64,000 nt of DNA, taken from assembly GCA_029866005.1 (NCBI GenBank), contig JARXAE010000024.1, forward strand, positions 62,001 to 126,000. Reading direction: 5' to 3'. Both the position numbers and the translations under genes were made by a program. Shown here piece by piece: positions 57,073 through 60,096 of this stretch. This DNA comes from Fimbriimonas sp. (GTDB lineage Bacteria; Armatimonadota; Fimbriimonadia; Fimbriimonadales; Fimbriimonadaceae). The notes under the pieces are model-generated. The model saw only the letters and a list, made by a program, of their open reading frames with translations, had not been told where the DNA came from and did no database searches. The stretch's first letter is position 1. Each line of letters opens with the position of its first letter.

Positions 57073-60057
57073 TTAAGGTGTGATTAGCTTTATCGACTTC
57101 AGATTCATCACCGCACCTTTGGGCATCATTCGGACCTTGACTTCGAACCGGGTTTTGCCGGTTTTGGTGAGGGTGATTTCACCGAGATCGAGGGCCTTGA
57201 AGGAGCCCCAGCCGCCGGTGCTGGCGATGGTGAATTGCGTTTCGATATCGCCGCTCAGGAGGGAGCACAGGGCGCCTTCGCTGCCGGCTTCGCAGGCGTA
57301 TTCGAATTGGAGTTTGTACTTGCCTGGGCGGACGATGTTGATGTCCCAGAAGACGCTGTCGGTCTGGTTGGTCCAGAAGCCGATTGCTTTCTTCTCGCTT
57401 TCGAACTTAGCCGTGGTACCCGTGACCGTGGCATCGCCGGCGAGAAAGGTGAACGACCCGTTGGGGTTCTGTTGGGGCAGAACTTTAATGATGTTGGGTT
57501 CACCTTCGAGTTCGACTTTGATGACGATTGGTTCAGTTCTGCCATCGGGCAAGTTGAGAACTGGGCTCGCGAGTCCTTCGGTGATTGCAACTTGCTTTCC
57601 GGTTGCCAAGATCTTAGCAGTCCGGATTGGAGTTTGCAATCCGGGGAGTTCAACGGTGGCGATATTCGGATCGAAGACGGTGCAGTAAAGAGTGTTTCCT
57701 TTTCTGGTCACCCGGCCCCATGGAAGCGGTCTCGCGAAAGGCGAGGCTTTGGTTCCGTAGACGGCTTCGCCGTTTTTCTCGAGCCACTTCCCGACTGTGT
57801 TGAGCCGGTCGACGCTTGGTTGAGGGATTTCTCCGAGTCCGGTTGGACCGACGTTGAGGAGGTAGTTTCCGCCTTTACTGGCGCAATCGACGAGGTTGAA
57901 GATGAGAGTCTCCGCGGACTTCCAGTTGTTGTCGCCGGCGTGGTAGCCCCATGAGCCGTTCATGGTCATGCAGCTTTCCCAGTCGATGCTAAGACCGTTG
58001 GCGGGGATTTCTTGCTCGGGAGTTCCGAAGTCTCCGGCGAAGCCAGCGGCGGAGAGACCGCTCATTCCTGCACGGCCGGTGTCGACGCGGTTGTTGATGA
58101 TGATGTCAGGCTTAAGGCCTCGGACGTAGTTGTAGAGGTCAACTCCGCGCTCATGATTCCATGTGTTCAACCATTCGCCGTCGAACCACATGACCGCAGG
58201 GTTGTAGCGGGTGACAACCTCTTTGAGTTGGGCCTTCATGAACTTGACGTAGCGCTCGAAGTCGGCTTTGACCTCAGGTCGTTCGTCGTATTTTTCTCGC
58301 GGTGTGTGGTCAGGGTTGTGCCAATCGAGGATGGAGTGGTAGGTGCAGAACTTGATGCCTTGCTTCTTGCACTCGTCGCTGAGTTCTTTGAGCGGATCGC
58401 GCTTAAACTGGGTGTTTCCGATGTGCCAGTTGCCTTGATTACTTGGCCACATTGCGAAGCCTTCGTGGTGCTTGCTGGTGATGACGATGTACTTCATCCC
58501 GGCGGCTTTCGCGGCTCCGACAATCTTTTTGGCGTCAAAGTTGACGGGGTTGAACTGCTTTTGGAGGGGTTCCCAGTCTTTGATTTTTACTTTGGCGGTG
58601 TTGATGAGCCACTCGGACGCACCACCGTACTCTTTGCCGTTCCAGGTTCCGGCGGGGATGCTGTATAGACCCCAATGGATGAACATTCCGAAGCGGGCGT
58701 CTCGCCACCAAGCCATGCGGGCGTCCTTTTGGGCTTTGCTTTCGGTCATGAAGCTTTGCTCGCCGGAGTTGAACGCACGGAAGCCGGTGATAATTGGAGC
58801 TCCGAGTGCCTTTTCGACGGTGAGTTTGAGGGCGGTGACCGTGGTCGGGACGACGCGGAAGAGTCGCTTGTTGCCAATGGTGGTTCCGGTGGCCAGGGAC
58901 TCCCACTTGCCATCTACTTGGGCTTTGACGTCGAATTGGGCGATGGTTTGACCCTTGGCGATGTCTTCGGTCAGTTCAACTCGGTCGATGAGAGTTGGCT
59001 TTTTGAATGTGATGGAGAGGGATTTTGTGTCTTCTACCTTGATCGGCGCAGTGAGCGGCGTCTTGAAGGTCTTGTCGAGTTTTGCTTTGAGGCCGAGCAG
59101 GGCTTTGACGTCGTTTTCGTGGATCAGACCTCGGGTGTCGGGGGGGACGTTGAGGAGGAAAGAGGAGCCGTGGCCGACGGATTGATAGAAGAGATTTTCG
59201 AGATCGGTTGCGGTCTTGACCCTTGCGTTCTCGGATTCGCGCCAGAACCAGCCTGGGCGGATGCTGACGTCGCACTCACTGGGCACCCAGTCGGTTCCGT
59301 TTGGGTCACCTGCACCAAGCTCTTTAGAAAGTGAGGTTCCTGGGGTGTAGCGGCTCCGGTTGATCGTCGCCCAGCTTGTAGAGGGGGACTTCCCGGCTTC
59401 ATTTCCAACCCAGCGGACGTCGGGTCCGGCGTCGGAGAAGATGACAGCATTAGGCTGGAGGCGGCGAACAGTGTCGATATACCGCTTCCAATCGTAGACT
59501 TGCTTCTTGCCGTTTGCACCTTCGCCGTTGGCTCCGTCGAACCAGACTTCGAAGATGTCACCATAGTTGCCGAGGACTTCTTCGAGCATACCGACGAATG
59601 TGTCGTTGTACTTGTCGGTTCCGTAAGTCGGGTGATTACGGTCCCAGGGGCTGAGGTAGACGCCGAGTTTGATTCCCTCTTTTTTGCAGGCTTCTGAGAG
59701 TTCTTTTAGGACGTCTCGTTTGAGCGGAGATTGAGCGACGGTGTGCGTGGAGAACTTGCTCGGCCAAAGGCAGAAGCCGTCGTGATGCTTGGCGGTGAGA
59801 ATGACGCCCTTCATTCCAGCTTTTTTGAAGGTCTTCACCCATTGGCGGGTGTCGAGCTGGGTCGGGTTGAAGCTGCGCGGGTCCTCGTTGCCTTCGCCCC
59901 ATTCTTTTCCGCTAAAGGTGTTTGGTCCAAAATGGACGAAGCCGTAGTACTCCATCTTGTGCCAGGCGAGCTGGCGAGGGGAGGGAGTTGGTCGGGATTG
60001 GGCGGCGGACATTGTGGCGAGTGAAAGCAAGGAAGCAACGACGATGGCGCGAAGCAT
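57073..60057 (-). CDS. Two-domain alpha-L-fucosidase (tandem GH29 plus carbohydrate-binding parts)
   Basis: Reading from ATG 60057 gives 994 residues with a signal peptide (MLRAIVVASLLSLATMSAAQ). The first GH29 barrel (residues 25-335) has AKHHDGFCLWPSKFS and the likely nucleophile Asp174 in FEVWFDGANG. A discoidin-like domain (residues 345-430) follows, as in GH29 subfamily B. A second GH29 barrel (residues 440-770) has TSKHHEGFAMWPSN and Asp626 in PAVMWFDGEWLN, as in subfamily A. Residues 775-880 are a beta domain of the usual GH29 C-terminal type, and 880-994 resemble a DUF5077/CBM domain. It would remove alpha-linked fucose outside the cytoplasm. A perfect TATAAT box ends six bases before the ATG. 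Confidence 0.92.
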   Translation of the reverse strand: MLRAIVVASLLSLATMSAAQSRPTPSPRQLAWHKMEYYGFVHFGPNTFSGKEWGEGNEDPRSFNPTQLDTRQWVKTFKKAGMKGVILTAKHHDGFCLWPSKFSTHTVAQSPLKRDVLKELSEACKKEGIKLGVYLSPWDRNHPTYGTDKYNDTFVGMLEEVLGNYGDIFEVWFDGANGEGANGKKQVYDWKRYIDTVRRLQPNAVIFSDAGPDVRWVGNEAGKSPSTSWATINRSRYTPGTSLSKELGAGDPNGTDWVPSECDVSIRPGWFWRESENARVKTATDLENLFYQSVGHGSSFLLNVPPDTRGLIHENDVKALLGLKAKLDKTFKTPLTAPIKVEDTKSLSITFKKPTLIDRVELTEDIAKGQTIAQFDVKAQVDGKWESLATGTTIGNKRLFRVVPTTVTALKLTVEKALGAPIITGFRAFNSGEQSFMTESKAQKDARMAWWRDARFGMFIHWGLYSIPAGTWNGKEYGGASEWLINTAKVKIKDWEPLQKQFNPVNFDAKKIVGAAKAAGMKYIVITSKHHEGFAMWPSNQGNWHIGNTQFKRDPLKELSDECKKQGIKFCTYHSILDWHNPDHTPREKYDERPEVKADFERYVKFMKAQLKEVVTRYNPAVMWFDGEWLNTWNHERGVDLYNYVRGLKPDIIINNRVDTGRAGMSGLSAAGFAGDFGTPEQEIPANGLSIDWESCMTMNGSWGYHAGDNNWKSAETLIFNLVDCASKGGNYLLNVGPTGLGEIPQPSVDRLNTVGKWLEKNGEAVYGTKASPFARPLPWGRVTRKGNTLYCTVFDPNIATVELPGLQTPIRTAKILATGKQVAITEGLASPVLNLPDGRTEPIVIKVELEGEPNIIKVLPQQNPNGSFTFLAGDATVTGTTAKFESEKKAIGFWTNQTDSVFWDINIVRPGKYKLQFEYACEAGSEGALCSLLSGDIETQFTIASTGGWGSFKALDLGEITLTKTGKTRFEVKVRMMPKGAVMNLKSIKLITP

Positions 60058-60063
60058 GGGCGA

Positions 60064-60069
60064 ATTATA
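60064..60069 (-). promoter_or_regulatory. Probable leaderless -10 box for the fucosidase gene
   Basis: On the minus strand the consensus TATAAT is followed by six bases and ATG 60057. A second TATAAT for the plus strand lies 28 bases away. Confidence 0.65.
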
Positions 60070-60096
60070 TCGGTAACCCGCAAGGGGATGCATCCG

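Follow-up and report, generated by a model that had tools for sequence, protein, structure and literature searches.

One gene of the window (the whole 64,000-nucleotide stretch of Fimbriimonas sp. DNA analysed here) encodes a chain in which a complete GH29-B fucosidase is followed by a complete GH29-A fucosidase and a carbohydrate-binding-like domain. We read the product as a secreted bicatalytic exo-alpha-L-fucosidase in which complementary B and A barrels are combined with a binding module, and assign this reading a probability of about 0.8. The arrangement is a real and conserved domain architecture, new in itself and made of known enzymes. Fused CAZymes are common. For the GH29-GH29 architecture no description was found among 5.39 million open papers, a collection that does not extend to CAZy or to most subscription journals, and there was no GH29-B/GH29-A fused enzyme among the solved structures compared. 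The apparently convergent joining of the two subfamilies, always in one order, gives a useful and testable lead. That it recurs in distant phyla suggests a joint use of GH29-B and GH29-A activities on fucosylated glycans of the environment. The protein may also serve as a natural single-polypeptide defucosylation tool, for which split gene pairs supply natural single-domain controls.

Gene and domain architecture

The genome carrying the window is 2.8 Mb in size and 97% complete, and the gene lies on its contig C32. The domain order is signal peptide, GH29-B barrel, F5/8C-type sandwich, GH29-A barrel, sandwich and CBM6/35-like domain, with the following features (residues numbered from the first codon of the open frame).

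57073..60093, minus strand: fused GH29-B/GH29-A alpha-L-fucosidase gene; open ORF of 1006 aa with full-length relatives in many genomes
60001..60057, minus strand: signal peptide, residues 13-31 (MLRAIVVASLLSLATMSAAQ), recognised by direct reading of the sequence
59050..59997, minus strand: GH29-B barrel, residues 33-348; 4zrx 2.8e-107, 3ues 1.4e-100, 5k9h Z 51.5
59536..59538, minus strand: GH29-B nucleophile D186, aligned to the D replaced by A in 3uet
59398..59400, minus strand: GH29-B acid/base E232, aligned to the E replaced by A in 3uet
58756..59049, minus strand: F5/8C (discoidin)-type beta sandwich, N-terminally shortened, residues 349-446; Pfam F5_F8_type_C 1.7e-4
57754..58749, minus strand: GH29-A barrel, residues 449-780; 6gn6 2.5e-74, Z 44.6
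58180..58182, minus strand: GH29-A nucleophile D638, aligned to BT2970 D229 and P. thiaminolyticus FucA1 D186
58015..58017, minus strand: GH29-A acid/base E693, aligned to BT2970 E288 (Q in 2wvs) and P. thiaminolyticus FucA1 E239
57490..57753, minus strand: C-terminal beta sandwich of the GH29-A half, residues 781-868; structural matches of 6gn6 and 2wvs reach model residue 833
57076..57489, minus strand: CBM6/35-like jelly roll, residues 869-1006; BH0236 CBM6 profile 1.2e-8, 2cdp Z 16.2

The in-frame ATG at 60057 (codon 13) opens a typical signal peptide and is probably the true start. It is also the start used by the sequence-only reading, whose Asp174 and Asp626 correspond to D186 and D638 in the numbering from 60093. 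That reading had proposed two complete GH29 barrels with separate nucleophiles, and Pfam, the catalytic-residue alignments and structure prediction agree on this point. The 1006-aa protein contains two Alpha_L_fucos stretches, both of which pass the cut-off of 25.2 bits in a whole-genome search (320.1 and 140.3 bits), and NCBIfam profiles gave no match to the fused fucosidase. The structure prediction that had been proposed as a check (AlphaFold2, from a 41-sequence alignment) yields two barrels, their sandwiches and a C-terminal jelly roll at a mean pLDDT of 90.8. The pTM of the full-chain model is 0.68, low relative to the pLDDT, so that the relative placement of the domains is uncertain and a fixed two-site geometry gets no support from the model. 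Structural matches were obtained by realigning Foldseek candidates with VIA-align.

The N-terminal half belongs to GH29-B, as had been proposed. From residue 33 to about 440-445 the best matches in both sequence and structure are the GH29-B entries 4zrx, 8ayr, 5k9h and 3ues, the best chains cover this half at Z 47-51.5, and in both sequence and fold residues 33-348 resemble characterised enzymes of GH29-B more than those of GH29-A. D186 and E232 match D172 and E217 of BiAfcB, 3uet being the BiAfcB D172A/E217A mutant chain. The known GH29-B alpha-1,3/4-fucosidases, which match the N-terminal half at Z of about 48-51, share its barrel, catalytic pair and C-terminal sandwich (BiAfcB, 3ues; BACOVA_04357, 4zrx; the Akkermansia enzyme, 8ayr; SpGH29, 6or4). 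All four have a single catalytic domain, whereas the window protein continues into a complete GH29-A enzyme and, unlike them, has a shortened F5/8C-type sandwich. This sandwich scores 22.2 bits against a PF00754 cut-off of 28.2 and aligns only over profile positions 33-114; since the alignment starts at position 33 and the score falls below the cut-off, we call it a shortened F5/8C-type domain. The discoidin-like domain expected after the first barrel is thus present as a sandwich of this type but not as a full, above-cut-off PF00754 domain, a fuller copy of which, above the cut-off, is found in the fused relatives L042, L043 and L044.

The assignment of the second barrel to GH29-A likewise holds. 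Its best sequence and structure matches (residues 450-860) are the GH29-A entries 6gn6, 2wvs/2wvv, 9eu4 and 9rzy, the best of which cover the C-terminal half at Z of about 44, and in both sequence and fold residues 449-780 resemble characterised enzymes of GH29-A more than those of GH29-B. The catalytic residues of BT2970 and P. thiaminolyticus FucA1 are given here in what we take to be their published numbering; the distances from D to E, 59 and 53 respectively, are consistent with it. P. thiaminolyticus FucA1 (6gn6), BT2970 (2wvv) and the Vibrio EJY3 enzyme (7db5) have the same barrel, catalytic pair and sandwich as this half, and 7db5 aligns onward through the C-terminal domain (model residues 416-975), but each has one catalytic domain and lacks an upstream GH29-B half.

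The final CBM-like domain was also recognised correctly. Modelled separately, the last 138 residues reach a pLDDT of 96.1, with the agarase CBM6 2cdp as best match, and both the fold and the BH0236 CBM6 profile place them in the CBM6/CBM35 superfamily. The domain is assigned to the superfamily only, because it stays under the Pfam cut-offs of the individual families (CBM_35, 18.1 versus 28 bits; CBM_35_2, 17.5 versus 23 bits).

Distribution and origin of the fusion

A search of 291 Armatimonadota genomes, together with one scan of a species-level genome collection, detected the fused chain in 17 Armatimonadota genomes, every one of them belonging to the family of the window genome, and in eight intact proteins of Saprospirales-type Bacteroidota (L044-L048, L050, L051 and L060). 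The latter end differently at the C-terminus and are without the CBM6/35-like domain; the B barrel precedes the A barrel in every fused protein. An even sample of 247 Bacteroidota contained no further clear fused case, and in one apparent candidate (G536) the two halves turned out to be encoded by neighbouring but distinct genes. On plasmids no chain covering most of the fused protein was found. Among the matches listed for 149 Planctomycetota and 145 Verrucomicrobiota genomes there was no B-A fusion; A-A tandems occur in these phyla instead.

In trees of 80 B barrels and 120 A barrels, the fused proteins of Armatimonadota and Bacteroidota fall into different clades for both barrels, mixed with unfused relatives. 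After long branches had been dropped, AU tests rejected a single clade of all fused proteins for the A barrel (p = 3e-45) as well as the B barrel (p = 1e-11), which argues against a single ancient fusion common to both phyla. The simplest reading of this double rejection is that the same pair was joined in the same order at least twice, apparently independently, in two distant phyla. A single, very old fusion with many later losses is a less likely alternative. Within Armatimonadota, too, fused and unfused forms are interleaved.

Adjacent unfused B-A genes, each with its own signal peptide, are found in Chitinophagaceae and relatives (L052, L053, L054, L062 and L064), and adjacent unfused B-A pairs occur in Armatimonadota as well (L066, L173 and L179). 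The former resemble the fused proteins in gene order, and their A barrels lie, with support, in the Saprospirales fused-A clade, but they encode two polypeptides and their B partners belong to a different GH29-B clade. In Chitinophagaceae a same-frame stop separates B from A, and read-through was therefore considered; it was rejected, since the A genes have their own start codon and signal peptide and so are separate genes. In the fused proteins no signal peptide precedes the A barrel, whose N-terminal lead-in is nevertheless retained (MTESKAQKDARMAWW in the window protein versus LTETKQDRDTRMEWW in L052), a combination that fits the fusion of an adjacent pair. Judging from these sequences, the fusion probably arose by this route, in which an adjacent B-A gene pair would have lost the stop codon of B and the signal peptide of A.

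Several neighbouring architectures were encountered in the same searches. A ninth Bacteroidota case, in Splendidivirga corallicola BMA10 (L058:5881-9363), is a fused B-A gene with one in-frame TGA, which replaces a Trp of its relatives two residues before the catalytic Asp and marks either a pseudogene or a sequencing error. Another B-A fusion (L063:5989-9468 / L178:801-4280) has about 170 additional residues that separate the sandwich of B from the barrel of A. Proteins of the A-A and, in one case, A-A-A type in Planctomycetota and Verrucomicrobiota (L091:5932-9129; L099:2461-7341, the triple; G705:C65:149597-152599; G811:C119:76975-79974) resemble the window protein in having several GH29 barrels in one chain, but all of their barrels are GH29-A-like and none is GH29-B, and they are a separate kind of multi-barrel fucosidase. 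In one genome of the window's family (L170:113-2230, G146) a GH29-B barrel is joined directly to a CBM6/35-like domain without the GH29-A half, which suggests that the A half was lost or that the C-terminal domain has been shuffled. Four further proteins of about 1130-1190 aa (L088, L098, L181 and L182) combine GH29-A with a CBM6/35-like domain behind some 580-630 further N-terminal residues, which possibly form another catalytic module.

Proposed function and catalytic integrity

The GH29-B barrel would remove alpha-1,3/1,4-linked fucose from Lewis-type branches and the GH29-A barrel other terminal fucose, at alpha-1,2, alpha-1,6 or less demanding sites, while the CBM6/35-like module would hold the chain on a polysaccharide or glycoprotein. 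Each barrel is expected to work on its own by the retaining, double-displacement mechanism usual in GH29, using D186/E232 and D638/E693, respectively, and fusion would supply the two activities at 1:1 and bring both to one fucosylated surface. Activity, linkage preferences, carbohydrate binding and any kinetic gain from tethering are what we infer from the domain assignments, and complementary linkage coverage is plausible from the subfamilies of the two barrels. GH29-B enzymes prefer Lewis epitopes, and the preference of GH29-A enzymes differs by cluster, being alpha-1,2, alpha-1,6 or broad (PMC11189522). The split is leaky, five of the six GH29-B enzymes tested having cleaved aryl fucosides (PMC11189522). 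The proposal that one chain would cover both substrate classes presupposes a strict GH29-B and a relaxed GH29-A, and on this point it is weaker than the sequence-only reading put it.

The strongest competing account, to which we would give somewhat less than even odds, is that fusion provides co-secretion and equal dosage only, with the two barrels acting on unrelated substrates and the tether adding no synergy. It accords with the uncertain domain placement in the model, with the adjacent unfused pairs of other bacteria and with the interleaving of fused and unfused forms within the family; against it, the two subfamilies were apparently joined in one order at least twice, which hints at a benefit while leaving synergy unproven. 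The most far-reaching version of the bicatalytic reading, that a convergent B-to-A defucosylase strips difucosylated (Lewis b/y-like) or mixed-linkage fucosylated glycans in a single binding event and that the fixed order reflects intramolecular synergy, is in our judgement rather unlikely.

Degenerate catalytic modules used for binding occur among CAZymes, and one barrel could in principle have lost catalysis to become a fucose-binding module. We consider this very improbable. All four catalytic residues are in place and are invariant among the fused relatives, D186/E232 in 26 of 26 fused B barrels (and in 80 of the 80 B barrels sampled) and D638/E693 in 25 of 25 fused A barrels (the two columns being conserved in 120/120 and 119/120 A barrels overall). 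Both barrels are under equally strong purifying selection (dN/dS of 0.035-0.048 against the two closest relatives), and invariant residues together with a dN/dS of about 0.04 argue against an inactive barrel. Neither of the two has the look of a catalytic module decayed into a binding domain, and from these sequence data both halves are probably active.

A recent tandem duplication of one fucosidase, suggested by the shared GH29 family and by the A-A tandems of Verrucomicrobiota and Planctomycetota, is refuted by the 26% identity between the barrels and by the trees. Each barrel is clearly more similar to its own subfamily, and its neighbours in the tree include unfused members of that subfamily. 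With catalytic residues in both barrels and so low an identity, neither the loss of an acid/base residue nor a recent duplication within one subfamily, the two weak points named by the sequence-only reading, was found. An artefact in which faulty assembly or an overlooked stop merged two neighbouring genes, for which the adjacent separate B-A genes of relatives could be cited, is refuted by the recurrence of continuous ORFs of about 1000 aa in independent assemblies (17 Armatimonadota genomes) and by the lack of a signal peptide of its own on the second barrel.

Genomic context and fucose use

The neighbours of the gene in the window, judged by eye from their translations, resemble a TrkA-type channel protein, a glycine-rich protein and a LemA-like gene pair, and no fucose or polysaccharide-utilization locus is visible around it. 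The genome lacks the FucI and FucP families, as searched with working positive controls, and a fuconolactonase query, run without a positive control, gave no match in it. Since FucI and FucP are absent and no fuconolactonase was matched, the fused enzyme may uncap glycans rather than feed the cell on fucose. Besides two other GH29 genes, the genome carries a GH95 fucosidase on contig C36, and alpha-1,2 fucose could already be within the reach of that enzyme.

The split B/A pair of a Chitinophagaceae MAG (L052:577-8829) adjoins divergently oriented genes for L-fucose uptake and oxidative catabolism. These include an L-fucose:H+ symporter (fucP, TIGR00885; 356 bits versus a cut-off of 280) and an L-fucose dehydrogenase (NF052481; 397 versus 300), as well as a fuconolactonase-like gene (below cut-off), a 2,4-diketo-3-deoxy-sugar hydrolase-like gene and a second SDR, and this neighbourhood associates the B-A pair of L052 with L-fucose release and oxidation. 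The Splendidivirga copy (L058) is flanked by two sulfatase genes and another GH29-B-like gene.
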